64,000 bases of DNA from Ancylobacter sp. TS-1 (GTDB lineage Bacteria > Pseudomonadota > Alphaproteobacteria > Rhizobiales > Xanthobacteraceae): assembly GCF_009223885.1 (NCBI RefSeq), contig NZ_CP045144.1, forward strand, positions 682,001 through 746,000. Reading direction: 5' to 3'. This document shows, piece after piece, positions 6,000-48,301 of this stretch; positions within the stretch are counted from its first letter, which is position 1, and every line of letters begins with the position of its first letter. The position numbers were made by a program, and so were the translations under genes. The notes below the pieces were generated by a model that ran no database searches, was not told the origin of the DNA, and saw nothing but the letters and a program-made list of their open reading frames with translations.

Positions 6000-6295
6000 G
6001 CTGTTCCCCTTGCTTCAAAATGGGCCGCGAACTGGCTTCGGCGCGCCCGGATCGAGGCTAGGTATCCCGCCGCGCTACGCGAACGGCAATGCCCCATAGG
6101 AGGCAGGGAGGGCGATGCGGCCCCGCCGGCACAGTCAAAAAAACGAATAAAATAATCATGATATCAATATATTGAGTGGCTTTGACGCGAAATTGTGCGG
6201 TACCGGCCGGGGCGGCCGCGACAAGTTTTTGTGCGCCGTTCGTCAAAGTGCTTCACTGGCGTTCCTCGCTTCCCCCGCGCAAAAGCGACGCCATC
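6000..6295. promoter_or_regulatory. Divergent promoter region between the TRAP operon and the AraC-amidase gene
   Basis: This 296-bp gap separates dctP (minus) from the AraC-FmdA fusion (plus). Bases about 6135-6180 form a conspicuous AT-rich patch in GC-rich surroundings, with runs of A and the short palindromes ATCATGAT and GATATC. This is where promoters and an AraC-type binding site would be expected. No exact -35/-10 pair is assigned. An in-frame extension of the plus gene back to 6176 crosses this patch and looks non-coding. Confidence 0.45.
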
Positions 6296-8635
6296 ATGAA
6301 CCGAGCCGTTCCCATCTCGATCAACGCCTTCCCCGCGAGCCAGCAGGAAGCGGCCTGGCGCGAGACGCTGGCTAGCCTCGCTTTGGCCGGCCGGTTGCCG
6401 AAGGACGCGGCGTTCCATTTCGGCGAGGTGTCGATCAAGCGCTCGCCGACGCTGGCGACCTTCGCCCTGCTGCGCTCCAGCGCGCAGGACCTGACGGCGC
6501 TGCCGAAGGGCGAGCCCCAGATCCTGATCGGCTTCGTGAATTACGGGCGCGGGCACCTCACCGATTCCGGCCGGCGGGCCGCCGAATTCGCCGATGGCGA
6601 CCTGTGGGTCTGCGATCCGGCGGCGCCGTTCTCGATCCAGTTCCGCAACGACTTCGAACTGCTGCTCCTGCGCCTGCCGCGCGAACGGCTGGTGGGGCGC
6701 TTCGGGCGGGCGCCGACGGTGCCGACGCTGGTGCTGGGGGAATCGGTCTCCGCCTCCGCCGCCCGCCCGATGATGCGGGCGCTGGCGGCCAGTTTCGCGA
6801 TGATGGAGGACGGCGACGTGATGGCCGCCGAGCCGGCCGTGACCGGCCTCGTGCTGTCGGCCCTGCTGGCCGAGGCGCGGCCGGAGGAGGACAGCGCCAC
6901 GCAGGTGCAGTCGGCCCATTTCGCCCGTGTCTGCGCACAGATCGAGGCGCGGCTGCGCGAGCCGGACCTGTCGGTGGCCGACATCGCGCAGGCGGAAGGG
7001 CTCTCCGCCCGCTACATCCAGCGCCTGTTCGAAGGGCAGGACCGCTCCTTCTCCGACTATGTGCGCCATCGCCGGCTGGAGCAGTGCCGGCTCGAACTCG
7101 TCAATCCGCAGCACGCCGACCGCTCCATCGCCGAGATCGGCTTCCGCTGGGGCTTTTCCGACCAGGCGCATTTCAGCCGGGTGTTCAGCGCCGCCTATGC
7201 CATTTCGCCGCGCGACTACCGCAAATCGGCCGGAACGACCGAGGAGACCCGCTGGACGCGCGGGAGGCCGATGCATTCCGGCGCCCGGGCGGCGCGGCCG
7301 GCGCCGGTCGCGGCGCCGGCCTCCACTCCTGAGGAAGCCTCGCCCGCCGCCCCGCCGGCCGAGGTGGGCGAGCCCGGCCATCACCATCTGTCGGTATCGC
7401 GCGATAGCGTTCACTGGGGCTATCTCTCGCGCACCATCCCGCCCGTGCTGCGGGTCCGCTCCGGGGCGCGCGTCACCATCGAGACGCTGACCCAGCACGC
7501 CTATGACGACCATGAGCGGATGATTTCCGGCGATGCCGGTGCGGAGAACGTGTTCCGCTGGACGCGCGACTACAAGGCGGTGGACCGGCGCGGCGCCGGG
7601 CCGGTGAACGCCTCCATTTTCGGGCGCGGGGCGGGCGAGGGGTTCGGCGTGCATATCTGCACCGGGCCGATCTTCGTCCATGGCGCCGAGCCGGGCGACG
7701 TGCTCGAGGTCGAGATTCTCGACCTGAAGCCGCGCCCCTGCGCCAACCCGGCCCATGCCGGCTTCGCCTTCGGCTCCAACGCGGCCGCCGCGTGGGGCTT
7801 CCACCATGACGACATTCTCGACGAACCGCGCAAGCGCGAGGTCATCACCATCTACCGCACCGATGCGGCCGGAGAGAGCGGCTTTGCCGAGGCGGTCTAT
7901 TCCTATCGCTGGGCGCCGCAGACCGACCCGTTCGGCGTGATGCATGAAACCATCGACTATCCCGGCGTTCCGGTCGACCACGCGCGGATCGAGAAGCGCG
8001 AAGGCGTGCTGACGGGCGCGCGCATTCCTGTGCGGCCGCATTTCGGCTTCATCGCGGTCGCCCCGCGCGAGACCGACATGGTGGATTCGGTGCCGCCGGG
8101 CTATTTCGGCGGCAATATCGACAATTGGCGCGCCGGCAAGGGCGCGGCGGTTTATCTGCCGGTCGCGGTGCCCGGCGCGCTGCTGTCCATCGGCGACCCG
8201 CATCTGGCGCAGGGCGACGGCGAGATCAGCGGCACGGCGCTGGAATGCTCGTTGACCGGAGATATCCGCCTCGTGCTGCACAAGCGCGGCGAGACGAACA
8301 AGGCGTTCCTGAACGGGCTCGGGGCGCCGCTGATCGAGACGCCCGACGCCTGGCTGCTGCACGGCTTCAGCTACACCAACTATCTGCGCGAACTCGGCCG
8401 CAACGCGCAGTCCGAGGTGTTCAAGCGTTCCTCGCTGAGCCGGGCGCTGCGCAGCGCCTTCCGCGCGACCCGCAAATTCCTGATGGAACGCTACGGGCTC
8501 GACGAGGACGAGGCGATCTCGCTGATGTCGGTGGCGGTCGATTTCGGCGTGACGCAGGTGGCGGACGGCAACTGGGGCGTCCATGCCCGGATCGCGAAGG
8601 CGATCTTCGAGAGACCGGCCGAGGGGCGGGGATAG
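6296..8635 (+). CDS. AraC-family regulator fused to an acetamidase/formamidase
   Basis: A single frame of 779 residues joins two families normally found as separate proteins. Residues about 30-180 match an AraC N-terminal sensor region. Residues about 200-310 form the double helix-turn-helix, with LSVADIAQAEGLSARYIQR and IAEIGFRWGFSDQAHFSRVF. A Pro/Ala-rich linker covers about 320-355. Residues about 358-779 form the acetamidase/formamidase domain (HWGYLSRTIPPVLRVRSG, GHICTGPI-like and GDPHLAQGDGEISGTA elements). ATG at 6296 is preferred: the frame is open to 6176, but that stretch is AT-rich promoter DNA. The protein could couple amide hydrolysis to control of the divergent TRAP/Ggt operon. 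Whether it works as both enzyme and regulator is unknown. No stop codon or frameshift separates the halves. Confidence 0.88.
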   Translation: MNRAVPISINAFPASQQEAAWRETLASLALAGRLPKDAAFHFGEVSIKRSPTLATFALLRSSAQDLTALPKGEPQILIGFVNYGRGHLTDSGRRAAEFADGDLWVCDPAAPFSIQFRNDFELLLLRLPRERLVGRFGRAPTVPTLVLGESVSASAARPMMRALAASFAMMEDGDVMAAEPAVTGLVLSALLAEARPEEDSATQVQSAHFARVCAQIEARLREPDLSVADIAQAEGLSARYIQRLFEGQDRSFSDYVRHRRLEQCRLELVNPQHADRSIAEIGFRWGFSDQAHFSRVFSAAYAISPRDYRKSAGTTEETRWTRGRPMHSGARAARPAPVAAPASTPEEASPAAPPAEVGEPGHHHLSVSRDSVHWGYLSRTIPPVLRVRSGARVTIETLTQHAYDDHERMISGDAGAENVFRWTRDYKAVDRRGAGPVNASIFGRGAGEGFGVHICTGPIFVHGAEPGDVLEVEILDLKPRPCANPAHAGFAFGSNAAAAWGFHHDDILDEPRKREVITIYRTDAAGESGFAEAVYSYRWAPQTDPFGVMHETIDYPGVPVDHARIEKREGVLTGARIPVRPHFGFIAVAPRETDMVDSVPPGYFGGNIDNWRAGKGAAVYLPVAVPGALLSIGDPHLAQGDGEISGTALECSLTGDIRLVLHKRGETNKAFLNGLGAPLIETPDAWLLHGFSYTNYLRELGRNAQSEVFKRSSLSRALRSAFRATRKFLMERYGLDEDEAISLMSVAVDFGVTQVADGNWGVHARIAKAIFERPAEGRG

Positions 8636-28865: not shown

Positions 28866-29665
28866 CGCTTCCGCGCTCGAATTGCAGCTTGTCAAACAAG
28901 TACGCGATTCGTCGGGCTGCTGTGCATCCGCCAATGTTCACCGCCGTTTATGCGGAGCCGCCGAGTTTTATTCGACGAATATTAGACGGTTTTGACCAAT
29001 GGGGTTGCGACCCATTGAAAAGCCTGGCGCGCCGACCAAAGTGAAACTGCGAACACCTATGTCGTTGAAATTGCATTAGTTTAGAAGGCGCCGTTGAATG
29101 GGCTTAAGCGACGTGTCGAGTTAGGGTGCCGGCATGCACGTCAATAAACAAATCCGCGCGGCACGTGCGTATCACCCGAGATCGAATCCCGCATGCTCCA
29201 CCTCGGAGCTTGCCAGACATAGACTAGGTGGACCGCGAGTGGCAAAGATGCGAACTGGCCCACTCCGTGGGATGACGCAGCCTTATAACTAGGCGTTGAT
29301 CGGGACTTCGGTCGGCGTCGAAGAGGGCGCCCTAGCAGCGTTGAGCCGATGTCGATGATGGTTGCACTCCTTCGCGGTCCGCTTGCGGCATCGCTCGCTA
29401 AAATGGGAGGCATCCTGACCAGTCAATTGCGCATCGACGCGGAACGCGCGGAACGCGAGAATCCACCAACCCCGCTGTCCAAATTTCTCGAGCCAGCTCT
29501 TAAAGTGCCGCGCAGATCGGGCGCTGAAGGCTCATCTCGCGACTTCAGCATTAGGCGCGCCTAATTGCCCACTGCCGCCGCAGCACAGCTGCACCTGTGG
29601 TCGATCTCGTGAGTGACACGGATCATGTCCGCCTCCATGCTAAGCATGAAAGAATCGGAGACGTC
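28866..29665. other. 800-bp gap without a convincing gene
   Basis: Mixed composition. A hairpin CAATGGG/CCCATTG sits at 28997-29017, and two tandem GCGGAACGC units occur near 29440. A 71-codon frame at 29349-29564 lacks a Shine-Dalgarno and family features and is not called. The last 60 bp before 29666 should hold the mcrB promoter, but no clear -35/-10 pair is seen. Confidence 0.5.
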
Positions 29666-31018
29666 ATGGCCGTTATGAAGGTGTTTACCGGGCCGCCCGG
29701 TACCGGGAAGACCTGGCGCGCGGCGCGCGCGGCGGTCGACATTCTTCGCCCGGGGACTGCATCAGACAACGTGCAGGCTGTCCATCAGCAACTGGTGGAG
29801 GAAGGAAGGATCGTGTGGGTTACGTTCCATCCGAGCTATTCCTACGAAGATTTTGTCGAGGGTTTTCGTCCAGAGGAAACACCGACAGGCAATGTGATCT
29901 ATTCAATTGCGCAGGGGCCATTCCTGCTGGCGTGCAGAACAGCGAGTGCGGCTGTCAGCGCTAATCGGTTCGCCGTGGGACAGCTTCTCGGACCGAACGA
30001 CAGATATCGAGTGACACATGTCGAGGCCGGCGGCTTGGTGCTAGCCACGGTCGCTAACACCCGTGGCGACGCAGTGGCGGGGGAGGAGGACGAGCCTGCC
30101 CAAGGTTTCGTGGATTTTTGGACGCTTAAGAAGTTTGCTGACCAGGGGCGCCCCGTTAAGGACTTCCGAATCCCAGGCAAGGAGAACGACCGAAAGAAGC
30201 AAGTGGCCCGGGAGCTCGGCGTACCCAGTACCTTTTTCAACAATGCAGGCCGTCATGCGGCTGTCTATGAGGCGCTCCAGAGGGACGGAACCGTAATCGA
30301 GCCCACCCCCGTCGTGTTGGTGATCGACGAGATTAATCGGGCAGACTTAAGTCGGGTGTTCGGCGAACTCATCACGTTGCTGGAGTTCGACAAGCGGCAG
30401 GGTGCTAGCGAGGAGCGCCGCGTAACCTTGACCTATTCTGGCAAACCGTTGGGTGTGCCGGCGAGCCTATCGGTCATAGGAACAATGAATACGGCGGACA
30501 AGTCATTGTCGACGGTGGACCTGGCGCTGCGCCGACGCTTCGATTTCGTGGCGGTGCCGCCCGAGCCCTTGCTTACGCCCGACCAATGGGCTGGGTTGGA
30601 CCTGCGATCGCTATTTTCCGACCTAAATCGACGCATCACCGCGGTTAATGGACCTGAAAACCTTGTGGGTCATGCGGATTATATGTCGAATAAACTCGAA
30701 GAACTTCGCATCCGAGAGGGTTATGGCGATGATGAAGACGGCAGGTTGCGGGCTGTGGCTCATGTTTTGCGCATGAAGACCATTCCCTTCCTTGTAGATC
30801 TGTTCCGCGGCGACGGGCGTTTGGTCCGTTTTGTTGCCGGGAACGATCTATTTGTGGAAGAGCCAATGGACGATCTCGCCGAAGCGCTACAGGCGCTGGG
30901 ACGGTTTGATCCTGACCCAGTAACCAGGCCTGCAGCATGGTGGCATCCGCGCGAACCCGATTGGGATGGTGCGCGTTTCGCGGCGCGATTCCCTTCCGTA
31001 CCGGCTAGCGGAGTATGA
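29666..31018 (+). CDS. mcrB: McrB-like AAA+ GTPase/ATPase of a restriction system
   Basis: A 450-residue AAA+ motor of the McrB family. Walker A is FTGPPGTGKTW (Lys15), Walker B VLVIDEINRADLSRVFGE, and the McrB signature GTMNTADKSL is present. A sensor/Arg-finger region VDLALRRRFDF follows. ATG at 29666 has GGAG 5 bp upstream. The P-loop starts only about 9 residues in, so the N-terminal DNA-recognition domain of E. coli McrB is absent; target choice must come from another protein. It is coupled to mcrC. Similar AAA+ subunits serve McrBC and multi-subunit systems such as LlaJI and BsuMI. Confidence 0.9.
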   Translation: MAVMKVFTGPPGTGKTWRAARAAVDILRPGTASDNVQAVHQQLVEEGRIVWVTFHPSYSYEDFVEGFRPEETPTGNVIYSIAQGPFLLACRTASAAVSANRFAVGQLLGPNDRYRVTHVEAGGLVLATVANTRGDAVAGEEDEPAQGFVDFWTLKKFADQGRPVKDFRIPGKENDRKKQVARELGVPSTFFNNAGRHAAVYEALQRDGTVIEPTPVVLVIDEINRADLSRVFGELITLLEFDKRQGASEERRVTLTYSGKPLGVPASLSVIGTMNTADKSLSTVDLALRRRFDFVAVPPEPLLTPDQWAGLDLRSLFSDLNRRITAVNGPENLVGHADYMSNKLEELRIREGYGDDEDGRLRAVAHVLRMKTIPFLVDLFRGDGRLVRFVAGNDLFVEEPMDDLAEALQALGRFDPDPVTRPAAWWHPREPDWDGARFAARFPSVPASGV

Positions 31019-31019
31019 C

Positions 31020-32303
31020 TTGCGACGGCCAATCCCCGTTGTCACCGCGCGCGAGTTCGCTCCGGTGCCTTTACCTCAGAACTTAGATACGCCCCGCATC
31101 CGCGAGCGGCTGACAGCAGCGGCTCTGCGCGTAGGCGTATCGGGGTTCGAGACGCGTGGGCGTCGCCTGCATGCGCTCGGGGTAGTCGGAGTGGTTGATA
31201 TCGGCGAGGTTGTCGTTGAGATTCTGCCCAAGACCAATGACGGTGCGGCCCGCGGCGACGATGTTGCCTTCCTCGGCGCGCTGTTCCGCTATGTCGGCGC
31301 GCCCAACGATCTCGGCCTGTCCGAGGCCGGCGTAGCGAAGGAAGGTGGCGATCTGCTTGAGATAGTCTTCACGTGGGCCAGCCGTCTGGCAGCAAAGTTG
31401 CTGGAGGAGGGACCGCCGCGCCGCTACACAGTGCAAGAGGAGTCTTCCTCGGCCGTGCGCGGCCGCGTGGAGTTGCGCCATCTCGTGCGGCAGCGGCCAG
31501 GACGTGCCTTCGAACTCACTGTCCGGCACGCACCATTGTCCCGCAACAACCCGGTTAGTCGGATCATCCGTTGGCTCATCGCGACCCTCAGTGAACGCAC
31601 CGGTAGCATGGCGACTCGCGGACGCTGCCTCCAGCTCTTGGACCGATTGGGCGGAGTGGAGGCGGTCATGCCCAATCTACGTGACTTAGACGGTCTGGTT
31701 CCGACACCCTCCGAAGTAGCCTGGGCGCCTCTGCTAGCGCTGGCCCGACTTTTCCTCTTACAGGGGCATCCCGATCCCACGCGCGGCGGGGCCGTGGCGG
31801 CTATCGCGGTCCTCGTGCCTTTGCACGGTCTTTTTGAAGCTGCGGTACGGCGGGTCCTGCGGGACGGTCTGGCGCTACATGGCCTGAGACTAACGCGCGC
31901 GGGCGGTGCACTACTGCGCAGCGATGCGTCGGGAGGACTAGTCGATCTGCGACCAGACTTCCTTCTCAATCGGGATCACACTCCTGTTGTGGTCGGAGAC
32001 GCGAAATGGAAAAGAATATTCAACGGCGATGGCGCACCGCAGCCGACGGAACGCGACGTCTATCAGCTGACGGCATATGTTGCGGCATTCGAGGCAAAGG
32101 CCGGCTTTATTGTGGCCCCTCTATCTGAGGGGCCAGGTCCGGCACTGCGCCAAGCCACCTATAGGCTGCGCGGATTGGAGCGGCAGGTGGACATTCTTGG
32201 CGTGCGGCTGCCGGTTCTAATCGGCACGAACACGGCAGCTTTGACCCTGCGCACCGCGCTCTGCCGGACGCTGTGCGATCTCTCTTGGCCAGCGGTGGGC
32301 TAA
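31020..32303 (+). CDS. mcrC: McrC-like nuclease subunit
   Basis: About 428 residues from TTG 31020, which lies 2 bp after the mcrB stop with CGGAG 6 bp before it. ATG 30966, overlapping mcrB by 53 bp, is the alternative. The McrC family N-terminal barrel appears as VVDIGEVVVEILPKTN. The C-terminal PD-(D/E)XK site is DLRPDFLLNRDH followed by VVVGDAKWK. The nuclease would act with the McrB motor. It ends base-to-base with the convergent methyltransferase gene (no spacer). Confidence 0.9.
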   Translation: MRRPIPVVTAREFAPVPLPQNLDTPRIRERLTAAALRVGVSGFETRGRRLHALGVVGVVDIGEVVVEILPKTNDGAARGDDVAFLGALFRYVGAPNDLGLSEAGVAKEGGDLLEIVFTWASRLAAKLLEEGPPRRYTVQEESSSAVRGRVELRHLVRQRPGRAFELTVRHAPLSRNNPVSRIIRWLIATLSERTGSMATRGRCLQLLDRLGGVEAVMPNLRDLDGLVPTPSEVAWAPLLALARLFLLQGHPDPTRGGAVAAIAVLVPLHGLFEAAVRRVLRDGLALHGLRLTRAGGALLRSDASGGLVDLRPDFLLNRDHTPVVVGDAKWKRIFNGDGAPQPTERDVYQLTAYVAAFEAKAGFIVAPLSEGPGPALRQATYRLRGLERQVDILGVRLPVLIGTNTAALTLRTALCRTLCDLSWPAVG

Positions 32304-34697
32304 TTACCCCAGGCGGCGGCGTTCACCGCGCGCCTTTGTGGCCCCTTCACGGGCCGATAGGATACGAGCAAGTCGTTCGGCGATGTTATGGCTCAGCAAG
32401 GGCGGCACGGCGTTACCGACCATCTTGAAAGCGTCCGTCAGCGATGCGCTATCGAAGGTGAACCAATCGGGAAAGCTCTGAACGCGAGCTGCCTCCCGAA
32501 CCGAAATTGTGCGCGCTTCATAGGGATGGACATAGGCGTAGGTGTCCTTTCCCATATGACTGACTATCGTCTTAGATGGTCGCGTCGCATCCATGCGGGC
32601 GACCCAGTCGCCATGATTGCCTTCTCTTTTGGACAAATAGCTTTCAGTCAGCAAGTGATGTTGCGCGCCCAGTTTCTCGCCGGCTTGTTCAAGGAGAAGG
32701 CGTAGCGGGAGCGAGCCGTCGATCCGCGCTCGGAGGTCTGCTAGCGCCTCACGATGTGGTAGTTCCTGACCAGCTTTCCAGGCCGCTCGGGTAGTGGCGT
32801 CCAGTACGGAGGCGGGTATCGCCAGCAGGGCGTCAAGCACGCACGCCAGAGCATCTACCGTCTCCGCATCGTCGGCGCGATAGTCCATCCAACGACGGCC
32901 TGGCCCCATCAAGGCGAAAAATGCCGCGTCGTCGGCCCGCGGCGCACGCACTGCATGGCTGTCGACAGTCTCCGGGGCGATAGCGGTTCCGGGACGGGGT
33001 TGGCGAATCCAAGTGGTGAAAGGATCGGCGCCCGCCGTCGCTGCCGTAGCCGGCTTGGACATGGCGTCTGCTGAAGATTCTCCACCGACCGCCACAGGCG
33101 AGCCGAGTCCCGCCAAGGCCTGCCCCAGCCGCGCCTCCGGCAAACGGCGGAGGTCCAGACATGTTCGGGCGTCCACTTCGGCGGTTGGCCGATCCGTTCG
33201 GACGCCCGACATGAAGTAGCGTTGGCGCGCCTGTGGCACGCCGTGACGGGAGGCGTCGAGCACACGAGATGACACGGCGTAGGTCACTTCGCCCTCGGAC
33301 ATGGCCGCAATTGCCTCGGCCAGAACTTCTGTAGCTTGAAACTCTACGCCGTCAGCTTTCACCGTCGACTGAAAATGCTGTACGTTCTCGAAAAGAAAGG
33401 TGTCCGGGCGCAGGGCGCCGAGAACCATCACATACCTCTGGAACAATAGGTTGCGCGCATCTCCTGCTTCGGCACTGCCATGAACTTGGACCCGCGCGTC
33501 GCGTAAGCTCCGAATCTTGCCCCGACCTATGCGACTGAAGCCCTGGCACGGCGGTCCACCGACCAGAACCGACACCGGGCAGCTTTCAGCGTAGAGTCGC
33601 CCCAACGCTTCGGCGAAACCAGCATCTTCGAACAGGCCGGCGCGTAAAGTTAGGCGCTCAGCCCTCCAACGGACCCACGCGTCTCGAACTTTCGCCATAG
33701 CTGGAGTCCCCAGGAAGGCTACAAAAGCCCCGACTCGTCGCGCAGAGGCTGTCAATTGGCCTCGGCCGGTCGCCGCCTGTTTCTCAGATATTACCGCGAC
33801 TTCTCGGTCCCATTCCGCACGGGCCGCGTTAATCTCGTCCGCTACAGGGCGGACACGGGAGCCGCGCACCGGGAGACGTTCAGCACCCGCCCATAGTACA
33901 AGTGATAGTGATGCGTCTCGGCTTGAGGTGCGCGGCAGCTTTAGTTTCTCATGAAAACCGATCACTGAAGTTTGGCTTAGCGCCTGGCGATCGAGGCCGT
34001 CGCTGGCCTCACGCCAAGCTGCTCCGATACGGATCTCATTGAGCGATTCGAGAAAAGCGTGATCCGCCGCAGCAATCCGGGCCAGAAATGTTGGAAAGGC
34101 GCCATTTGATAGGGCCGCAAGAGCGGCGGCCAGAGCGGCGTCGCCCAACACGTCGGAGGCATGCTGGACGTAAAAAGCGAGGAACTCCGCTTCGTTCAAG
34201 AACTCTGTCAAATCCATCTGTCGACCGACGTCGCGGTTGCCGCGTCCCATGGTGCGAACGTTGCTGTTCAAAACAGCTACGGGCGCCGCCTGGTTATCGA
34301 TGGCCAGCACGGTTCGGAACTGCCGGCCACCGTCATAAAGGTCGAAGCCGAGACTTAGCCCACCGCAGCCCGAAAAGATGTCCACTACATAACGCGGCCG
34401 CGCGGGCGGCACCGGCGCCGGAACCAGTGCGTCCACTATGTGTTCTTCCGTCCGCTCGGGCAGAACGAAGACATTGGTCCCATCTTGGCGGCCGGCCAGC
34501 CAGTTTTCGTATTTTCGAGCGGAGTCACTGCGGACGTGCTCGCCGGCGAGGTGGTTCTGTAACGTTCCCATACCGACGCCAATGGCCCGGGCGGCGGCTG
34601 AAAGGGTAAAACCCCGCGTCTCGATGGCAGTTCGCACCCTGGACATAAGGGAGCCGGAGGCAGGAGGCGTCGGATTATGATTCGTCATGGCGGTCAT
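32304..34697 (-). CDS. Large DNA (cytosine-5-)-methyltransferase with N-terminal HTH
   Basis: A 797-residue m5C methyltransferase. Motif I is VDIFSGCGGLSLGFD (about 105-119), motif IV VGGPPCQGFSRIG (catalytic Cys384), motif VI FLFENVQHF and motif VIII PQARQRYFMSG. Motif IX is in ISVREAARVQSFPDWF and motif X in MVGNAVPPLLSHNIAE. Residues about 28-55 resemble a helix-turn-helix (LSAAARAIGVGMGTLQNHLAG). About 260 residues are inserted between motifs I and IV, which makes it unusually long. It is divergent from the XRE gene across a palindromic operator and presumably protects host DNA from the neighbouring nucleases. Confidence 0.95.
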   Translation of the reverse strand: MTAMTNHNPTPPASGSLMSRVRTAIETRGFTLSAAARAIGVGMGTLQNHLAGEHVRSDSARKYENWLAGRQDGTNVFVLPERTEEHIVDALVPAPVPPARPRYVVDIFSGCGGLSLGFDLYDGGRQFRTVLAIDNQAAPVAVLNSNVRTMGRGNRDVGRQMDLTEFLNEAEFLAFYVQHASDVLGDAALAAALAALSNGAFPTFLARIAAADHAFLESLNEIRIGAAWREASDGLDRQALSQTSVIGFHEKLKLPRTSSRDASLSLVLWAGAERLPVRGSRVRPVADEINAARAEWDREVAVISEKQAATGRGQLTASARRVGAFVAFLGTPAMAKVRDAWVRWRAERLTLRAGLFEDAGFAEALGRLYAESCPVSVLVGGPPCQGFSRIGRGKIRSLRDARVQVHGSAEAGDARNLLFQRYVMVLGALRPDTFLFENVQHFQSTVKADGVEFQATEVLAEAIAAMSEGEVTYAVSSRVLDASRHGVPQARQRYFMSGVRTDRPTAEVDARTCLDLRRLPEARLGQALAGLGSPVAVGGESSADAMSKPATAATAGADPFTTWIRQPRPGTAIAPETVDSHAVRAPRADDAAFFALMGPGRRWMDYRADDAETVDALACVLDALLAIPASVLDATTRAAWKAGQELPHREALADLRARIDGSLPLRLLLEQAGEKLGAQHHLLTESYLSKREGNHGDWVARMDATRPSKTIVSHMGKDTYAYVHPYEARTISVREAARVQSFPDWFTFDSASLTDAFKMVGNAVPPLLSHNIAERLARILSAREGATKARGERRRLG

Positions 34698-38668: not shown

Positions 38669-40954
38669 ATGCCCCGTACGAGCTTCGCGCGCATGTTGGT
38701 GAAGTTCTGCCAGCAGCGCGCCACGACCGTCCTGTCGCCTCGCGACGCCGATCTGTTCCAGAACTGGCTTCTCGATCTCCTAGCTGCGCGCGTGCCACCG
38801 CCTCTAACCGAGCGCGACTATGACTGGCATGCGATCGCTCACGCCTGTGATGTCGATCACGCCGATCTGAAGCGTGCCGGCTCCATACTTGCACCCAGCC
38901 TTGATGCGCTGCGCCGTGAACTGGCGCGCCGCGGCCACGTCACGGTGGAGCGGGGCGCGGCGCGCCGCACACCGCCGAGATCGGAGCGGGGCACACCCCA
39001 TCGTGGCGCGGACGAGCCGGAAGCTATGCCGCGCCGACGCGGCCCTCGGGCGAAGCCCATCATAGAGTTCCCCGAAAGCGACGGGCGGCCCTGGACCGAC
39101 CCGCCCTCATTCGCCGATGCGCTCGATCTTCACATGCGCCGCCATGGCGACACCGCGAAGCATCTCGCCCGTGTCCTTGAGGCGAGCGCGACCCAGGTCG
39201 ATGCCACGGCACTCAATCTGTGGCGCCGCGGCGTGAAGGTGCCGCGCGCCTCGCGAAGCCTCGCGGCGCTGGAGCTCATCGAGCGGCGCTACCGTCTCCC
39301 GCCGGGCTATTTCCGCTCGAAGCTGCCGAACGGAGACCGCTGCACCTCGGCGGGGACCATTGCCGGCATCAGTCGAGCCGAGCGACGACGCCTCGCCTGG
39401 CACCTGCCGCATGATTTTGATCGGCGCCCATTGAGGGAGAGGGAGGAGATCCTTGAGTGGGTGCAGCGCGTGGTGATCACGGGGACGACCGACTATCGCC
39501 GCTTCCAGGCTGCCGCCATGAAGCAGCGCTATTCGATCCGCTTTCCCGGCCTGCTCGACCAATCCTCCCGGCCGCGCGGGCTGTACCGGTTTTGCCGGGA
39601 GGAGGATGGATCGCTGCCGGATCCGGATCTCGCAAGTGCGGCGCTTGATGCGCCGCCCCAGCTGGCCGAGGAGATGGCCGATCTCGTCCGATTCAAGACG
39701 GCGACGCTGACGGCCTTCGGCTATCAGCGCAACGGTGTCTGGGGCGAGGAGACGGCATCCCAGAAGGTCGAACATCTCGGTCTGATGTTCGGTGCGCTGG
39801 CGGCCTCACCCAGCGGCGCGGTCCATGGCTTCGGCGTGCCGCTAGAGAATCTGAGCTTCAGTCTGCTGGTCTTCCCGATCGTGTGGGACTGGTACATTCA
39901 ATGGCGGGAGCGTCGGCGCGGCTTCTACACCGCGTGGGAAGTCGACATGCTGCGGATCGCCGCCGCGCTCACCCGCGCCGAGACAGGCTGGCTGCGGCAG
40001 AACCCGCAGTTGGCCGAACGCATCCGCCCCATTCCCAATCTGATCACCGAGCGCGACGTTGCCGCTGCCCGCGCGGACTGGGACGCAGCTTGCGAGCAGA
40101 TGCATCGCCACGGCCTCGCCCGCGCACGGGAGGTGCAGCGCGTAGCCCGCATCCATCGTGATCCCTTCGAGCCGATCATCGCGGTGCTGGAAGCGGAGAG
40201 GCCGGTCGCCGAGTATCGCAAGATCACCGAGGAGATCCTGCGGCTGATGCCGGACGAGAAGCGCTATCCGCGCGCGGCCGCCGAGGCGGTACGGGCCTTC
40301 CTCATGCTGCGGCTCGGTCTGCATCTCGGGCTACGCCAGAAGAACCTGCGTCAACTCCTCGTCTGTCCGCGCGGCCGGCTACCCACCTCGGAGCGCCGCC
40401 TCGCGGAGATGAAGCGTGGCGAGTTGCGCTGGAGCGAGCGCGACCAGGGATGGGAGGTGCTCATCCCCTCCGTCGCCTTCAAGAACGCGAACTCGTCTTT
40501 CTTCGGCAGCAAGCCGTTCCGGCTGATCCTACCGGACCTCGGCGGGCTCTATCACTATCTCGAGGCCTATATCGACCGCCACCGCCGGGTGCTGCTGAAG
40601 CACGCGGCTGATCCCGGCACGCTGTTCGTGAAGACGGTGAAGCTCACCAGCAAGGATGCCGGGTACTGCCAGAACACCTTCTATGAGGCCTGGCGTCTGG
40701 CGATCCAGCGCTATGGCATCCACAACCCCTACACCGGCCGTGGAGCCATCAAGGGCCTGCTGCCGCACGGGCCGCACAATGTCCGGGACGTGCTCGCGAC
40801 CCACATCCTGAAGAAGACCGGCTCCTATGAGCAGGCGAGCTACGCCATCCAGGACACTCCCGAGATGGTCGCCAAGCACTACGGGCGCTTCCTGCCCCAG
40901 GACAAGGCCGCTCTGGCAGCGCAAATTCTCAACAAGGTGTGGGAGGCGGCGTGA
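38669..40954 (+). CDS. Large tyrosine recombinase/integrase (761 residues)
   Basis: The C-terminal third carries the tyrosine recombinase catalytic core: Arg box in LGLHLGLRQKNLRQLL, the His-x-x-Arg box PHNVRDVLATHILKKTG (His703, Arg706) and the nucleophile in AKHYGRF (Tyr738). The N-terminal two thirds is a long helical region with many basic residues and is not a standard phage arm-binding domain. At 761 residues it is roughly twice a typical integrase. ATG 38669 is the first in frame but lacks a clear Shine-Dalgarno; ATG 38693 is possible. It probably mobilises this part of the island. Confidence 0.85.
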   Translation: MPRTSFARMLVKFCQQRATTVLSPRDADLFQNWLLDLLAARVPPPLTERDYDWHAIAHACDVDHADLKRAGSILAPSLDALRRELARRGHVTVERGAARRTPPRSERGTPHRGADEPEAMPRRRGPRAKPIIEFPESDGRPWTDPPSFADALDLHMRRHGDTAKHLARVLEASATQVDATALNLWRRGVKVPRASRSLAALELIERRYRLPPGYFRSKLPNGDRCTSAGTIAGISRAERRRLAWHLPHDFDRRPLREREEILEWVQRVVITGTTDYRRFQAAAMKQRYSIRFPGLLDQSSRPRGLYRFCREEDGSLPDPDLASAALDAPPQLAEEMADLVRFKTATLTAFGYQRNGVWGEETASQKVEHLGLMFGALAASPSGAVHGFGVPLENLSFSLLVFPIVWDWYIQWRERRRGFYTAWEVDMLRIAAALTRAETGWLRQNPQLAERIRPIPNLITERDVAAARADWDAACEQMHRHGLARAREVQRVARIHRDPFEPIIAVLEAERPVAEYRKITEEILRLMPDEKRYPRAAAEAVRAFLMLRLGLHLGLRQKNLRQLLVCPRGRLPTSERRLAEMKRGELRWSERDQGWEVLIPSVAFKNANSSFFGSKPFRLILPDLGGLYHYLEAYIDRHRRVLLKHAADPGTLFVKTVKLTSKDAGYCQNTFYEAWRLAIQRYGIHNPYTGRGAIKGLLPHGPHNVRDVLATHILKKTGSYEQASYAIQDTPEMVAKHYGRFLPQDKAALAAQILNKVWEAA

Positions 40955-41343: not shown

Positions 41344-42189
41344 ATGGTGAAAGTGATGGCGAAGGAAGAACAGCTGTTGGCGAACTCGATTCGAGATAGT
41401 TTTTATGAAGCAAATAAGATTGTCGACAAAATAACATACATCATCGAAGGCAATACCGTGGAGTGTATCAACACGGTTAATCCTGAAATGGATGAGGCCG
41501 ACGAGCTTTTGGAGTGGTACATCACCAAGCTTTATCGCGATGTCGGAGTGCTGGCGGAACGGATGCAAGTGCCACGTATGGCAGAGCGCATCGCCGCCGA
41601 ATTCGATGCCATCAAGAGCATTAACGATGTAAGGCCGAGCAACTTCGATGTTGGCCTAGTGAGCCCACACCTAAACCGTATCAGGGGCCACTTTGAGACC
41701 CTGGCAACAATGATCCACGGCACCGAGGTCACTGGGCTGGACGTGTTCCGCACCATTTTGGAGAACACCCCCGCTATCGTCGAGTTGACTGAGACCGATC
41801 CCAAAAAGGAGTCCGATGTCCAGAAGGCGGTGATGAAAGTACTTAGGATCGCCTTTCCAGATGTCGAACGAGAACCGTCGATCAGTCATGTGTTTAAACA
41901 CTACAAACCTGACTTCGGGATTCGATCTCTCATGGCTGCTGCAGAGTACAAGTTTGCAGACGGACTTGCTGAGGTGCGGAAGTCGCTCGACGAAATATAC
42001 ACCGACATGAAAGGATATAGTGGTCACTACGATTGGCGCACGTTTTATGCGGTCATTTATACGACAGACACCATTGTAAATCCAAAAGAAATCGAAGCCG
42101 AATTCACCAGTGTCGGCGCTGATCTGAATTGGTCCCCGATCGTGGTGGTTGGCAAAGGCCAGCGCAAACCCAAGGTGCCGAAGAGCTAA
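41344..42189 (+). CDS. DpnII/MboI-type PD-(D/E)XK nuclease-like protein, orphan
   Basis: A 281-residue cytosolic protein with visibly lower GC than its neighbours. The C-terminal half has the layout of DpnII/MboI-like nuclease domains: HYKPDFGIRSLMAAAEYKF (Asp190, Glu201, Lys203), followed by a helix and YDWRTFYAVIYTTD. The N-terminal 150 residues are helical (EWYITKLYRDVGVLAERM) and unassigned. No methyltransferase is adjacent, so it is not a simple restriction enzyme. A stand-alone abortive or nucleic-acid-targeting effector is possible. ATG 41344 or 41356 may be the start. Confidence 0.7.
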   Translation: MVKVMAKEEQLLANSIRDSFYEANKIVDKITYIIEGNTVECINTVNPEMDEADELLEWYITKLYRDVGVLAERMQVPRMAERIAAEFDAIKSINDVRPSNFDVGLVSPHLNRIRGHFETLATMIHGTEVTGLDVFRTILENTPAIVELTETDPKKESDVQKAVMKVLRIAFPDVEREPSISHVFKHYKPDFGIRSLMAAAEYKFADGLAEVRKSLDEIYTDMKGYSGHYDWRTFYAVIYTTDTIVNPKEIEAEFTSVGADLNWSPIVVVGKGQRKPKVPKS

Positions 42190-42747: not shown

Positions 42748-44859
42748 CTATACGGCTAGTAGTTTTTCGTCGGCGGCGCTCGCTAATACAAGCGGGACAT
42801 ACCTAGCGCAATAAATGTTGAGCGATTCCGTGGCCCTGCTGCACGAAAGATATACGGAAACCATCTCGCGGAGATGACCGAACTGTGAAGTGGGAGCGGA
42901 GATCCTCAAGGCCAAGACCACGACGTGCGAGAACTGCGTCCCGCCCACGAACTGCCAAGGAGACACGACGACGGATCGCTTGCTATAAGCCAATCGCTCG
43001 ATGTCGTCAAAGCTCTCAAGCCTGATCGTGTTGAGGCCCAGCTCGGCCATCCGCCCAGAAATCTCCGCGTCGATGTCGCCCAGAGTCACGACGCATATCC
43101 GATCGGAAGGTCCAGCACTGGCGTTGATGTCGGCGACCAACTCGGATGCCGCCACCATAGCCTCCTCCTCACTCGCAAAGGAGAACATCGACGGACGGTG
43201 CGTGCCGGCACCGCGGGTATCGTGAATGCGAAGCGGAAGGGCATTGAGGGGAAATTGCTGATATATGAAGCTGATGAACGCGAATATCTGCTCGTTGAAG
43301 CGATGGACGACCTCCAAGTATACCGGGACGTTTTCGACTGTGGCGCGCCGTGCATTAAGCGACGAGAACACTCCTTGCGCCGGATCTTCAGCGGTGACGA
43401 AGGGAACACCCCGCCGGGACCGCCCGAGCAGCTGCAGCGCGGTCCGCTCTTGCGGGTCGAAAACCTGCAGCTCATCCACAAGTATATAGTCGTAGCCTTC
43501 AGTTTCCTTCCTCATCCTCCAAGTAAACGTTTCCAGAACCCTAATTGCATCGAGTATGAACTGATCGGTGGTGATCGCGGACCGGTCGACCAACTCCTGC
43601 ATAAAGGAGCGATACACCGCAATCACGAACCCCCTGTCGGCGATTGTCACGAACGGTGGCATCCAGTCTTCGCGGGATGACCCTAGGTATTCTTGAATCG
43701 ATTCCGGGTCGTCGGGCGAGACTCCAGACGCGGTCAGTACGCCCGAAATCTCGTCGTAGAGATCCAGCGTGAGGTCGAGCCGCTGCCGGCTGTCCTTGGC
43801 GGCCGACACCGCGTCGCCTATCCAGTCCGCGACGCCAGGGTGGTTCGTGAGTTCGAGCTTTGATATCGTCTCGCCGATGATTTCGATCGACTTGAGGCGA
43901 CCTTCGGAGGAATCATCGCCTATTACGTTTGTACGCTGCTGACCGATATGCCCCGCATGGAGCTCCAGCAGCGAAAGTAGAGGAAAGACGGTGATTGCAT
44001 CGGGGGAGATTCCCCCGTTCAGGGTGTTGAGCACGCCGTCGATCCGCTCGGACATGGCCCAGCTATGCGTGGCAACGAGTAGCCGTCTACCCTGGGCCCG
44101 GACATCTTTGTCACGCGAAATTTGTATCGCTCGCATACACAACGCCAGCGTCTTTCCCGAACCGGCGGGACCGAGGATCCGTACCGACGCATTGATGTGT
44201 TGCTGGAGTATGTTCTTCTGGGAGTCAGAGAGCAAGTTCAGCCACTCCTCGTAGGATCGTCCCTCGACCACCGAGCGGCTTCCGATGGTCTCAAGGTCGA
44301 ACTCCTGCGCGATCGCGGCGAAAGAGGACGTTTCCTGTTCCGTGATCTCTTTGGCGGCGAACTGGGCAACGACGCCCACCATGTCGTCTGGCCAGGCTCT
44401 CGGTGCAAAGTTCGCGATGTCCACTTCCGACCCTTGGGAAGACAGATAGTCGAACTTCACGCACCTGATTTCGCTGTTGATTTCGACCACCCACCGACGG
44501 CTTGAGACCTCACGCGGCAACGCGAAGAAGGCCAGCAGGTTCTTGTGGTGGTATTCCAACCAATGTCGCGGCAGATGGACCGGCGGCGACTTCATGCCTT
44601 TGACGACCCGAGCCACCCTGCGAAAAACTTCACTGGGGGCACCGCCGTCGTCTTTCAGGAATGCGAGCCATTTCGTCCCAACCAGGGCCAGAAATTGCCC
44701 GGGTGGCTCATTGGCGAGCCGATATGCGACAGTAGAGTGGCCGATGAAGAATCGATGTATGCCGTTCTCCTCCTTCGGAAACATCGATCCTGGGTCGAAC
44801 GCACCGGTGGCCAGCGCTGCGTCGAGGGCGGACTCACTAATTAAGATCTGCTCAGGCAT
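42748..44859 (-). CDS. UvrD/Rep-like superfamily 1 helicase, second gene of a two-gene unit
   Basis: A 703-residue protein. The first about 200 residues are a distinct domain, not found in housekeeping UvrD. Then come a Gln motif (LSDSQKNILQQ), Walker A ILGPAGSGKTLAL (Lys236), Walker B YDYILVDELQVFDPQE with DELQ in place of the usual DEAQ/DExQ, a GRSRRGVPFVTAEDPAQGVF block, and a C-terminal motif VI-like YLSCSRATESL. ATG 44859 has GGAGG 9 bp upstream and overlaps the preceding gene by 8 bp. Accessory location and coupling to an unknown gene suggest a defence helicase; compare GajB of Gabija, though no GajA-like gene is present. Confidence 0.82.
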   Translation of the reverse strand: MPEQILISESALDAALATGAFDPGSMFPKEENGIHRFFIGHSTVAYRLANEPPGQFLALVGTKWLAFLKDDGGAPSEVFRRVARVVKGMKSPPVHLPRHWLEYHHKNLLAFFALPREVSSRRWVVEINSEIRCVKFDYLSSQGSEVDIANFAPRAWPDDMVGVVAQFAAKEITEQETSSFAAIAQEFDLETIGSRSVVEGRSYEEWLNLLSDSQKNILQQHINASVRILGPAGSGKTLALCMRAIQISRDKDVRAQGRRLLVATHSWAMSERIDGVLNTLNGGISPDAITVFPLLSLLELHAGHIGQQRTNVIGDDSSEGRLKSIEIIGETISKLELTNHPGVADWIGDAVSAAKDSRQRLDLTLDLYDEISGVLTASGVSPDDPESIQEYLGSSREDWMPPFVTIADRGFVIAVYRSFMQELVDRSAITTDQFILDAIRVLETFTWRMRKETEGYDYILVDELQVFDPQERTALQLLGRSRRGVPFVTAEDPAQGVFSSLNARRATVENVPVYLEVVHRFNEQIFAFISFIYQQFPLNALPLRIHDTRGAGTHRPSMFSFASEEEAMVAASELVADINASAGPSDRICVVTLGDIDAEISGRMAELGLNTIRLESFDDIERLAYSKRSVVVSPWQFVGGTQFSHVVVLALRISAPTSQFGHLREMVSVYLSCSRATESLNIYCARYVPLVLASAADEKLLAV

Positions 44860-45634
44860 CGCCGAATGCCTCCTCTATGGCCTCATCAATCCCGTCTGGA
44901 ATGTTTGGTAAGCCGATGTCCGAGAACACCTGCGCCATCAGCTGCGTCAACCGGTATCGGAACGGCGAATCCAAGCGTCCGAGTCGCTCGCCTGGGCGAG
45001 CGCCAACCTCTGAGGTCCGAAGTGCGATGTCATCCAGACCAACCTGCCAGATGTGCCTCAACCACGCTATGTGGCCAGCGATCCCCAATTTTTGAGTACT
45101 GGGGAGCATTAGCAGATCGCCGCGGCCGCGGATCTGGTCTCGGAGCGCGTTCTTCCCTTTGGGTCCGCTGCCGATGTCCCTCATCAGCTTAACGTAGCCT
45201 TCGACTGGGATGGAATCCGAGGCGCCGAAGACAAAGTCCGCCGCCACTTTCCGCGAATCATTCCCGTCTAGATCGGACAGTGCGCAGGTTTGCCGCAAAA
45301 TGGTGAGCTTTGTTGCGCGCTCTTGGCTCACGTTGATCGAATATGCTTTGAACAGATATGTCTCGATTATGTCGCGCTTCCGCTCGCAGTCCTCGAACAA
45401 CAGATACCGCTCGAGAACGGTTCGCGCATCGACGACCGGGACGAGCGTAACGAGGCGGGCATGCTTTCTCAGCTCGAGATCGCAATCGGCGGTGACGATT
45501 ATTCCTACCTTGCGGAGGGGACTTTCGGACCGTTCGAAGACAATCAGATCGCCTTGGCGCAGTTTAGCGTCGGGGCCGACAGTGTCGTCCAGTAGCCACC
45601 CTGGGACATCATCCTGCAGGTCTGAACTCGCCAA
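44852..45634 (-). CDS. Unrecognised 260-residue protein coupled to the UvrD-like helicase
   Basis: The start is TTG 45634 with an excellent GGAGG 6 bp upstream. The N-terminal part has a compact beta-rich look (LRQGDLIVFERSES, then GIIVTADCDLELRKHARLV), where TADCDL is a conserved-looking acidic/Cys motif. The middle is helical (KKRDIIETYLF-like, then SQERATKLTILRQT). The C-terminus is acidic (GIDEAIEEAFGDA). There is no signal, membrane span, nuclease or TIR motif. The 8-bp overlap with the helicase gene implies equal expression and joint function. It could be a sensor, adaptor or unfamiliar effector. Confidence 0.75.
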   Translation of the reverse strand: MASSDLQDDVPGWLLDDTVGPDAKLRQGDLIVFERSESPLRKVGIIVTADCDLELRKHARLVTLVPVVDARTVLERYLLFEDCERKRDIIETYLFKAYSINVSQERATKLTILRQTCALSDLDGNDSRKVAADFVFGASDSIPVEGYVKLMRDIGSGPKGKNALRDQIRGRGDLLMLPSTQKLGIAGHIAWLRHIWQVGLDDIALRTSEVGARPGERLGRLDSPFRYRLTQLMAQVFSDIGLPNIPDGIDEAIEEAFGDA

Positions 45635-46292
45635 CGTCCCCCTCCACGACTATGCCGCAGTGAGGCACAATCTAACCTCGACCGATTCGATTCGAAAATC
45701 TAACCGTAATTCGCGGGGTTGGTCGAGCCGGCGTTGTGGTGGCCATTCACATTGAGACGACCGGCGGACGGTGTGCGTTCACGAAGATCTTAAAGGACAC
45801 GCTTAGGTTCCACACCCCGCAGCTTGCAGCTTCAATTGAAGTTTCTCAAATATTTGGACGCGGTCCGCACCATCAGCCGTTCCGACACCAATAGAGGTTC
45901 TCTACACGTCAAAAGTAGAGCAGGCGCGACCCTGAGAGCAGCCGAAGCGGCGCCCTGGTGGCGGGAATGATATTTGGCTAAAGGTACTTGGATGCGTGAA
46001 GGTGACCGTTCCATTTTCATCAATCAGTTTTTGAAGCCATTTGAACGAAGGACCGCCTAGGCGCGGTCAACGTAAGAGGGAATGACCGAAATGGCGGCGC
46101 GAAACAGACGTCGCTACACGGGCAGTCGAACGCCAGGTATGGGTCGTTGCCGCCAGACTGCTCCACCAAACGTATCCCGGGAAAGACTCGCGCGCCGCAT
46201 CTGACAAGTATTTTTGCGCTGCTGCACGTGGTTGTTCTGCGGCGTAGAAACGGCCCCTTGGCCAGTGGGGGGATGCCCTTGATCCTCCGCGC
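45635..46292. other. 658-bp gap without supported genes
   Basis: Upstream of the TTG-start gene (minus) and of the recombinase operon (plus). It includes the 12-base palindrome CTTCAATTGAAG at 45830-45841. A low-GC stretch at about 45990-46060 looks like promoter DNA. Several short frames read through it but none has ribosome-binding or family support. Confidence 0.4.
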
Positions 46293-46580
46293 ATGCGCCA
46301 CTCGCGTCCGTTTCTTCCGAAGAAAATATCCAGTGCGGGCAGCGATGCTCCATCGCCAGCTTCGAGCTTGGCTGGCGCACCACTCTCAAAGATCCCGCAC
46401 CGTGATGCGCGCATCATTCGAGATGCTGAGCAAAACCTTGCGCCCGCTGACTCCGTCGAGCATGATTCCAAGGTCGTGCATGTCACCGACGACTGGCCGT
46501 CGAACGTTCCGATCACACCTGACGAGGTCGATGTTGTCGAAGCCTTCCTCAGGCGGGAGATTGATGCGCTGCTGAGGTGA
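46293..46580 (+). CDS. Small accessory ORF preceding the serine recombinase, 95 residues
   Basis: The C-terminal half (DWPSNVPITPDEVDVVEAFL, then REIDALLR) reads like a real small helical protein. I recall similar short ORFs directly before serine recombinase genes in alphaproteobacterial islands. It ends 38 bp before the recombinase ATG, and the frames nearly touch. The N-terminal half is Ser/Pro-rich and the start is uncertain. It may be a recombination directionality or accessory factor; this is inference from position. Confidence 0.5.
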   Translation: MRHSRPFLPKKISSAGSDAPSPASSLAGAPLSKIPHRDARIIRDAEQNLAPADSVEHDSKVVHVTDDWPSNVPITPDEVDVVEAFLRREIDALLR

Positions 46581-46618
46581 CGGTGCTGCCGAATGAACCT
46601 GACGGAGGCGATTGGGCT

Positions 46619-48283
46619 ATGAATGTAACCTTGCCGATCACCAGCCGGGCCGCCCTCTATCTCCGCGTCTCGACCACGCGGCAGGCCGACGTTGACCTGT
46701 CCATCCCAGACCAGCGCCTCCAGACCGCCGCCTATTGCGAGCGGCAGGGCTGGTCCGTTGTGGCGGAGTATGTGGAGCCGGGTGCGTCGGCGATGGACGA
46801 CAGCCGGCACGAGTTCCAGCGGATGATCGAACGGGCATCCGATGACGATCGCCCATTCGATGTCATCGTCGTCCATAGCTTCAGCCGGTTCTTCCGCGAT
46901 GCCTTCGGGTTGGAGATGTACATCCGACGCCTCGCGAAGCACGGCGTGCGGCTCGTCTCCATCACCCAGGAGCTCGGGGATGATCCAGCTCAGGTCATGA
47001 TGCGGCAGGTCATCGCCTTGTTCGACGAGTACCAGTCCCGCGAGAACGCCAAGTATGTGCTGCGGGCCATGAAGGAGAATGCCCGGCAGGGCTTCTATAA
47101 CGGCTCCCGCCTGCCGCTCGGCTTCGCCCTCGAAGAGGTGGAGAAGCGCGGCCATCGCACGAAGAAGCGAATCGTCGTTGATCCGGTTGAGGCCGAGCTG
47201 GTGCGGCTGATGTTCGATCTCTACCTGCAGGGAGATGGCACATCGGGTCCCATGGGCATCAAGGAGATAACCAAGCATCTCAACGCCAAGGGCTACCGCA
47301 CCCGTCTTGGAGCCCGCTACGGTGTCGGCACCATCCACGGGATCCTGACCAATCCCGTTTATGTCGGGGAATGGAGCTTCAACAAGCGAAGCTCGAAGAC
47401 CGGCCAGGTGAAGCCGCAGCACGAGGTTATCCCGATCTCGGAGCCGGCCATCCTCGAGCGCCGCACTTTCGACAAGGTGCAGAAGGCGCTCAGGGCGAAG
47501 AGCCCGCACAACAGCCCGCCACGGGTCATCTCAGGTCCGATCCTGCTGACTGGGCTTGCCTATTGCGCCTGCTGCGGCAGCTCCATGACGCTGCGCACCG
47601 GCACATCGAAGAGCGGCAGGGTCTATCGCTATTACAGCTGCTCCACCTCTGGCCGGGTCGGCAAATCCGCCTGCAAAGGGCGAACGGTGCCGATGGAGAA
47701 GCTCGACCATCTGGTCACACGCCATGTGGCCGAACGGGTCCTGATGCCCGAACGGCTGGAGGCGCTGCTGCAGTCCGTCGTCGACCGGCGGGTGAAAGCA
47801 GATGCCGAGGTTCAGGCGCGGATCGATGAACTCGCTCGCGAAAGGACGACAGCGGAAGACAAGCTCCGGCGGCTCTACCAGCTTGTCGCCGACGGCATCG
47901 CGGAACCCGACAATATGCTCAAGGAGCAGATTGCGAAGCTCAAGGTAGACCGGGATCGGGCGCATTCGGCCCTGAAGCGGATCGAGAATCAGGGAGCAGC
48001 CGCCAGCCGGCTTGATCCGGACAAGCTTGCCCGCTTCGGGCAACTCATGCGGTCAAACATCACAGAGGGTGAGGTGCCGTTCCGCAAAGCCTATCTGCGG
48101 TCGCTTATCGACGCGATCGAAGTCGACCAACACGTCGTGCGCATCCACGGGTCAAGGTCGGTGCTGGAAAGGGCCGTACTCGCCGACCGCGCCACCCAGC
48201 CGGGTGTTCGCGGTTTTGTACGGAAATGGCGCGCCCTAGGGGAGTCGAACCCCTCTCTCCACCGTGAAAGGGTGGCGTCCTAA
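46619..48283 (+). CDS. Large serine recombinase (site-specific integrase)
   Basis: About 554 residues. The resolvase-type catalytic domain starts with AALYLRVSTTRQ (nucleophile Ser18), followed by VVHSFSRFFRDAFG and the recombinase domain with LNAKGYRTRLGARYGVGTIH and ILTNPVYVGEW. A zinc ribbon (CACCGSS ... CSTSGRVGKSACKG) and a coiled coil (LARERTTAEDKLRRLYQLV) complete it, as in large serine integrases. ATG 46619 follows GGAGG; GTG 46577 is an alternative. The last about 18 codons (from about 48227) lie inside tRNA-Glu read on the opposite strand, so the natural C-terminus was set by insertion next to the tRNA. Confidence 0.9.
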   Translation: MNVTLPITSRAALYLRVSTTRQADVDLSIPDQRLQTAAYCERQGWSVVAEYVEPGASAMDDSRHEFQRMIERASDDDRPFDVIVVHSFSRFFRDAFGLEMYIRRLAKHGVRLVSITQELGDDPAQVMMRQVIALFDEYQSRENAKYVLRAMKENARQGFYNGSRLPLGFALEEVEKRGHRTKKRIVVDPVEAELVRLMFDLYLQGDGTSGPMGIKEITKHLNAKGYRTRLGARYGVGTIHGILTNPVYVGEWSFNKRSSKTGQVKPQHEVIPISEPAILERRTFDKVQKALRAKSPHNSPPRVISGPILLTGLAYCACCGSSMTLRTGTSKSGRVYRYYSCSTSGRVGKSACKGRTVPMEKLDHLVTRHVAERVLMPERLEALLQSVVDRRVKADAEVQARIDELARERTTAEDKLRRLYQLVADGIAEPDNMLKEQIAKLKVDRDRAHSALKRIENQGAAASRLDPDKLARFGQLMRSNITEGEVPFRKAYLRSLIDAIEVDQHVVRIHGSRSVLERAVLADRATQPGVRGFVRKWRALGESNPSLHRERVAS

Positions 48284-48301
48284 CCGATAGACGAAGGGCG
48301 C
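48227..48301 (-). tRNA. tRNA-Glu (anticodon TTC)
   Basis: On the minus strand the acceptor stem GCGCCCT pairs with AGGGCGC, the anticodon stem-loop is CCACC-CTTTCAC-GGTGG (anticodon TTC), and the T-arm has GGTTCGACTCC. A discriminator G and an encoded CCA follow. It forms the right boundary of the island; the recombinase coding frame overlaps its 3' half on the other strand. Confidence 0.96.

Follow-up and report, generated by a model that had tools for sequence, protein, structure and literature searches.

Gabija combines two genes, one encoding the OLD nuclease GajA and one encoding the SF1 UvrD-like helicase GajB, and Hachiman (HamA and HamB) joins a helicase to a small upstream partner. 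A small partner also accompanies the helicase of the Helicase + DUF2290 system, which occurs in phage or satellite hotspots (Rousset 2022, PMC9122126), and PrrC is an effector that is gated by an ATPase and has a link to type I restriction. A pair of genes (A and B; Table 1) from Ancylobacter sp. TS-1, lying in a window that is the whole stretch of 64,000 nucleotides analysed, resembles these systems in its general plan and is not a member of any system compared here. Unlike GajA, A is not an OLD nuclease: it has no PADLOC or Pfam match, and its structural model is MazF-like. B differs from GajB by an extra N-terminal domain, and its best PADLOC matches, to GajB-type models, are only partial (61 aligned residues for the best, E 7.1e-8). 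The HamA and HamB models match neither protein in the PADLOC scan. Nor is A a DUF2290 protein, since none of eight family members matches Pfam and the profile of A compared with three DUF2290 sequences, two of which are identical, gives a probability of about 0.1. On the basis of the Pfam, PADLOC and profile comparisons, assignment of the pair to Gabija, Hachiman or Helicase + DUF2290 was rejected. A parallel to PrrC is that two loci have the pair immediately behind hsdS; the pair differs from PrrC and RloC in lacking a sequence match, in having the putative effector (A) and the NTPase (B) as separate proteins, and in its occasional link to hsd genes. The earlier note had stated that the partners typical of Gabija and Hachiman are missing and that the pair does not match a system familiar to its author; this is supported in that neither gene corresponds as a whole to a named system, A having no NCBIfam match either at the cut-offs used and a single PHROG match at E 0.14. 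No description of the pair was found in the main texts of the open-access library searched; the words UvrD, MazF and helicase do not occur in the main text of DefensePredictor, and UvrD is not mentioned in the accessible part of PMC9519451.

The explanation favoured here, for which the chances are about even, is that A and B constitute an undescribed two-gene mobile defence module in which B acts as sensor or gate and A as effector. Both open reading frames, their 8-bp overlap and the TTG start of A behind GGAGG were found as the earlier note had described them. An overlap of the same length was also seen, by reading, in an Acidithiobacillus locus (L012), the closest relative (52-53% identity). 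There, A apparently starts at ATT behind AAGGAG (L012:7241), in-frame ATG, GTG and TTG being absent ahead of the A domain.

Table 1. Coordinates of the gene pair, of neighbouring features in the window and of receiver-fused A-like domains at other loci.
Feature	Position	Strand	Basis or remark
Gene A, 260 aa, TTG start, MazF fold (predicted)	44852-45634	minus	ORF, family alignment, model
Gene B, 703 aa, ATG start, UvrD-like SF1 helicase	42748-44859	minus	PF00580; sequence and fold matches to PcrA/UvrD in the PDB
8-nt overlap between the end of A and the start of B, ATGCCTGA	44852-44859	minus	
GGAGG, ribosome-binding-like site	45641-45645	minus	6 nt 5' of the TTG of A
A signature, G44-x4-A-D-C51-D52-x4-K57	45464-45505	minus	family alignment
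Walker A of B, GPAGSGKT, residues 230-237	44149-44172	minus	
Walker B of B, DELQ, residues 462-465	43465-43476	minus	D and E invariant in the B family
Large serine recombinase	46577-48283	plus	Ccr-like scores; beside the pair
tRNA-Glu	48227-48301	minus	overlapped by the 3' end of the serine recombinase
McrB/McrC-like pair facing a 797-aa cytosine methylase	29597-34697		
761-aa protein	38669-40954	plus	no Pfam match
DpnII/MboI-type nuclease domain	41344-42189	plus	
Receiver-fused A-like domain	L085:550-1842		
Receiver-fused A-like domain	L086:685-1773		
Receiver-fused A-like domain	L094:6004-7077		
Receiver-fused A-like domain	L095:4339-5496		
Receiver-fused A-like domain	L096:5980-6975		
Receiver-fused A-like domain	L097:about 6000-7062		

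The association of the two genes was examined from both sides. A scan of genome contigs with the helicase alone returned 27 loci, and an A-family ORF lies directly upstream in 23 of them (one of these, L032, has its match to A divided between two ORFs); the remaining four comprise two loci that start at a contig edge (L026, L031) and two with a partial helicase (L036, L038). Seven plasmid A rows match the A1 profile by construction, and the sub-group formed by L025, L027, L029, L030, L032 and L034 matches it at E 7e-14 to 2e-7. In plasmids, tblastn with A found one record, an Agrobacterium plasmid (27.8% identity) where the gene after A is a UvrD-like helicase overlapping it by 4 nt, and tblastn with B found 91 records. 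Inspection of ten of these placed an A-like gene directly upstream of the helicase in nine, the tenth being an E. coli copy whose helicase is truncated beside IS1. The gap between A and B ranges from -8 to +16 nt over 27 pairs with a true start codon, four of 31 pairs with a non-start-codon boundary having been left out. Moreover, the distances among A proteins and among B proteins correlate at r 0.934 over 29 pairs, a value reached in 0 of 20000 permutations (a mirror-tree/Mantel comparison that does not correct for the kinship of the organisms). The coupling of A and B is therefore confirmed to exceed chance, because 23 of the 27 helicase loci carry A upstream and the distances correlate.

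In the reverse direction, profile searches for A in 398, 345 and 346 genomes gave 13 distinct genomes with a match. The helicase adjoins A in nine of these, one of which (G489) has a decayed A, so that A is not mainly found alone in core genomes. The other four consist of two receiver fusions (G960 and G297), a broken A with no helicase in the available stretch next to it (G1285), and a chance match (G617, E 0.009) to what looks like a UreF-type protein. When the A sequence by itself was searched against 289 genomes, the sole match was the genome of the window. An apparent case of A without a helicase on a Rhizobium plasmid was rejected, the helicase there being truncated beside an IS21 element. 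The earlier note's proposal of a coupled two-gene system is supported, and the pair recurs in distant bacteria: judged by record titles, its hosts belong to Pseudomonadota, Actinomycetota, Spirochaetota, Bacillota, Fibrobacterota and Verrucomicrobiota, and one further pair is located on a contig titled Deltaproteobacteria. In the single pair of E. coli copies compared, dN/dS is 0.08 (A) and 0.06 (B). The A/B pair is an old, mobile unit.

B matches the UvrD-helicase family PF00580 (E 4.5e-10, above the cut-off), and its model matches UvrD/PcrA folds with a best E of 3e-15. Its helicase motifs are intact, with Walker A, Walker B, Q214, R520 and R675 invariant. The extra N-terminal domain of 200 residues reported previously is real, in that conserved helicase residues begin only near residue 206; a profile of the first approximately 200 residues found no sequence relative in the PDB (one hit, E 0.47). 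The DELQ form of Walker B had been called unusual, a description that is not supported: UvrD, Rep and PcrA helicases carry DE-x-Q and the consensus within the B family is DE-x-H-L-F, and therefore the copy in the window is the more canonical one.

Protein A is more difficult to place by sequence. None of eight members of its family matches Pfam, PF02452 (the MazF/PemK sequence family) included, or PADLOC, and a sequence search of the PDB found no credible relative, the best hit (E 0.032) being a designed protein. An AlphaFold2 model built from 25 sequences (mean pLDDT 88.4, pTM 0.81) was compared with the PDB by Foldseek, and the best 50 of 269 matches are all MazF-type toxins (some recognized by synonyms of MazF), with E values of 3.9e-3 to 5.4e-2 and probabilities of 0.99-1.00; none of the matches falls below E 0.001. 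For the same 50 of 269, target TM scores are 0.60-0.78 and query TM scores about 0.3, and the low query TM together with a high rmsd would be expected if helices at about residues 70-170 interrupt the barrel. The top match in BFVD carries the name PemK-like (E 9.7e-3). When profiles were compared, the similarity to ten PemK/MazF sequences was weak and in register, the GD-I start strand and the C-terminal helix being aligned: the N part scored a probability of 19.5 (E 0.0012), the C part 7.2 (E 0.0049) and the whole 3.4, in an alignment from which three of 13 loci were left out. A is thus predicted to have a MazF-like fold with a helical insertion of approximately 100 residues. The earlier statement that no domain can be recognized in A stands as far as Pfam, PADLOC and NCBIfam are concerned, but not with regard to the modelled fold.

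MazF catalysis uses an arginine and a threonine. In A, which differs from MazF/PemK also in its insertion and in having a helicase partner instead of an antitoxin, neither Arg nor Thr is conserved at the aligned positions 43 and 68, and RNase activity therefore cannot be transferred from MazF to A. Other residues are strictly kept. The GIIVTADCDLEL motif, which had looked conserved from the single sequence, proved to be so, as C51 and D52 do not vary among the 43 paired A proteins aligned and the Cys-Asp pair is present in six of six receiver-fused copies. K57 and G241 are likewise identical in all 43 paired proteins, K57 is kept in four of the six fusions, and G28 and R193 are found in 42 and 40 of the 43, respectively. 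The invariant Cys-Asp pair suggests a putative active site. Alternatively, A might be a MazF/SH3-like adaptor that has no catalytic role and serves to load B onto foreign DNA or to position it there, with unwinding by B itself blocking phage or plasmid replication. The loss of the MazF catalytic residues and the intact helicase motifs are consistent with this possibility, and MazF-like barrels bind nucleic acid; the Cys-Asp invariance and the occurrence of the A domain away from the helicase, on receiver proteins, argue against it, and it is considered unlikely.

A different architecture is represented by these receiver proteins. The A-like domain of G960 and G297 forms the C-terminal half of a protein of 363-431 residues whose N-terminus is receiver-like by eye and whose gene is preceded by that of a kinase-like ATPase. 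The A profile matches the C-terminal halves of the fusions with a probability of 97.4 (E 1.3e-11), compared with 0.1 for the N-terminal halves used as control. Relatives of one fusion occur in 22 plasmid records, and a histidine kinase gene precedes the fusion in all three annotated records inspected. A cytosine methyltransferase adjoins the fusion in L085 (by eye), L095 and L096, and is not in the L086 or L094 stretches. Identification of the fusions with Pfam PF19192 was considered and rejected, as the family matched in none of five genomes; this null is no proof of absence because no control genome matched either. Such reuse of the A domain suggests that A may be a swappable output domain and, because the domain is placed under another regulator, favours A as the output and B as the sensor. 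A broader proposal, offered tentatively, is that A represents an uncharacterised superfamily of MazF-fold effectors that has a Cys-Asp(-Lys) active site of its own and serves as an interchangeable output domain in at least two defence architectures, with helicase and kinase as alternative sensors, each of which would set free an effector of this kind when a phage infects. Equally tentatively, one of these architectures would be the pair with the UvrD helicase and the other a relay from histidine kinase to receiver that often lies beside cytosine methyltransferases.

The pair is mobile in several genetic contexts. None of the 20 relatives searched, among them 12 of the same genus, has helicase B, and the right flank of the pair is present in 20 of 21 genomes, its own included. 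The large serine recombinase beside the pair is probably the integrase of the window island, for which att repeats were looked for and none found. In one relative (G655), the recombinase DNA is shared at 92% up to the contig end, and in another (G663) only the last recombinase codons and the tRNA are shared. To our knowledge, serine recombinases seldom use tRNA sites, and one that ends over tRNA-Glu is an unusual arrangement. In E. coli, the pair has a match in 120 of 5,426 genomes (109 with at least 80% cover), and the matches occupy 121 plasmid places and no chromosomal one. A plasmid scan with the A protein of L030 gave no match.

Phages carry the pair as well. The P2-like Klebsiella phage ST16-OXA48phi5.4 encodes a helicase that is 74% identical, together with its A gene, and the pair has the portal gene on one side and the nicking/replication gene on the other. 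In P2-like phages, the cos-proximal site between gpA and gpQ is a hotspot of anti-phage systems, as described in PMC9122126. Two further contigs have the helicase near the portal gene: L079, which is almost the same as this phage, and L077, a more distant P2-like contig whose portal is 42% identical. Among viral contigs, A is upstream in four of seven loci found through the helicase, two others being at a contig edge and one lacking the helicase by profile; a scan of viral contigs with a single E. coli A protein found none. Copies of the pair that are decayed, or truncated beside IS elements, were observed (L008, L098:6843-7685, L040/L083 and L092/L093), and an IS1 lies inside a pair match in NZ_CP173483.1:96189-100020. 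Such decayed or IS-hit copies could mean that the pair is costly.

The genes around the pair, for which flank ORFs were called greedily and 20 plus 10 of 216 received an individual scan, include some of restriction and defence systems. In the window, these are the McrB/McrC-like pair, the cytosine methylase and the DpnII/MboI-type nuclease domain (Table 1). PglZ and BrxL of a BREX system are upstream in L017; hsdM and hsdS are upstream in L015 and L030, with 4 and 25 nt, respectively, between hsdS and the start of A; hsd genes lie downstream in L025 and hsdR is near the pair in L037. A mads-like match (L034) and a type IV-like match (L033) were also found, and multiubiquitin-ThiF-DUF6527 operons are near the pair in three plasmids. 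Together, the P2 hotspot, the BREX and type I loci, the ubiquitin-like operons and the plasmids make a defence role of the pair probable. PrrC is silenced by its linked type I enzyme according to PMC2610378, and the pair might by analogy guard restriction, remaining silent in type I and BREX loci and firing when restriction is inhibited, as the hsdS, hsd and BREX arrangements above would allow. Since type I or BREX genes do not adjoin the pair in most of the inspected loci, including the E. coli plasmids and the phage, the pair cannot need such genes everywhere, and a guard function is improbable.

Other neighbours point in a different direction. ImuA, Y-family and DnaE2-type genes are beside the pair in L004, a UmuC-like gene and an SOS peptidase are near it in L006, Ada, SOS peptidase and LigD genes in L002, and a DNA polymerase III alpha gene in L035; large neighbours of unrelated kinds include a subtilase (L016) and a ribonucleotide reductase (L029). 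The DNA-repair genes urge caution on the defence reading and, with plasmid carriage, would suit a mobile DNA-repair or plasmid-maintenance function in which A assists the helicase in the processing of DNA that is damaged or single-stranded. Such a function is nevertheless improbable in view of the location of the pair in the P2 hotspot and in BREX and hsd loci, the predicted MazF-like fold of A and the absence of the pair from related genomes.

If the pair is a helicase-gated defence module, B would be an ATP-driven UvrD-like translocase serving as both sensor and gate, which engages abnormal or foreign DNA from a phage or plasmid, or DNA that a failure of restriction leaves exposed. A would be the effector, held or released by B through physical contact and carrying the Cys-Asp-Lys signature in place of the catalytic Arg and Thr of MazF, and its action would most likely harm nucleic acids of the infected cell. 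This division of roles is slightly favoured; that A is specifically a nuclease is less likely than not. Counted against the module are the lack of a PADLOC model for the pair, the weak MazF profile and Foldseek scores, the missing MazF Arg and Thr, and the repair, SOS and unrelated neighbours. If correct, this explanation would imply that a helicase-gated system, absent from the scanned defence-model library, is carried by conjugative plasmids common in E. coli and occurs in the P2-like phage hotspot, and that different sensors have come to use one toxin-like fold, with one predicted active site, as their output domain.

Several minor features of the surrounding genes were also noted. In the window, the catalytic domain of the 797-aa cytosine methylase is matched in three separate stretches, the DpnII/MboI-type nuclease ORF has PADLOC matches to Argonaute-associated Helical-REase models (E 6.6e-9), and the C-terminus of the 761-aa protein appears tyrosine recombinase-like by eye (phrog integrase, E 0.14). 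At L025:12830-14332, an HsdS-type protein carries an N-terminal polymerase-beta-type nucleotidyltransferase domain.
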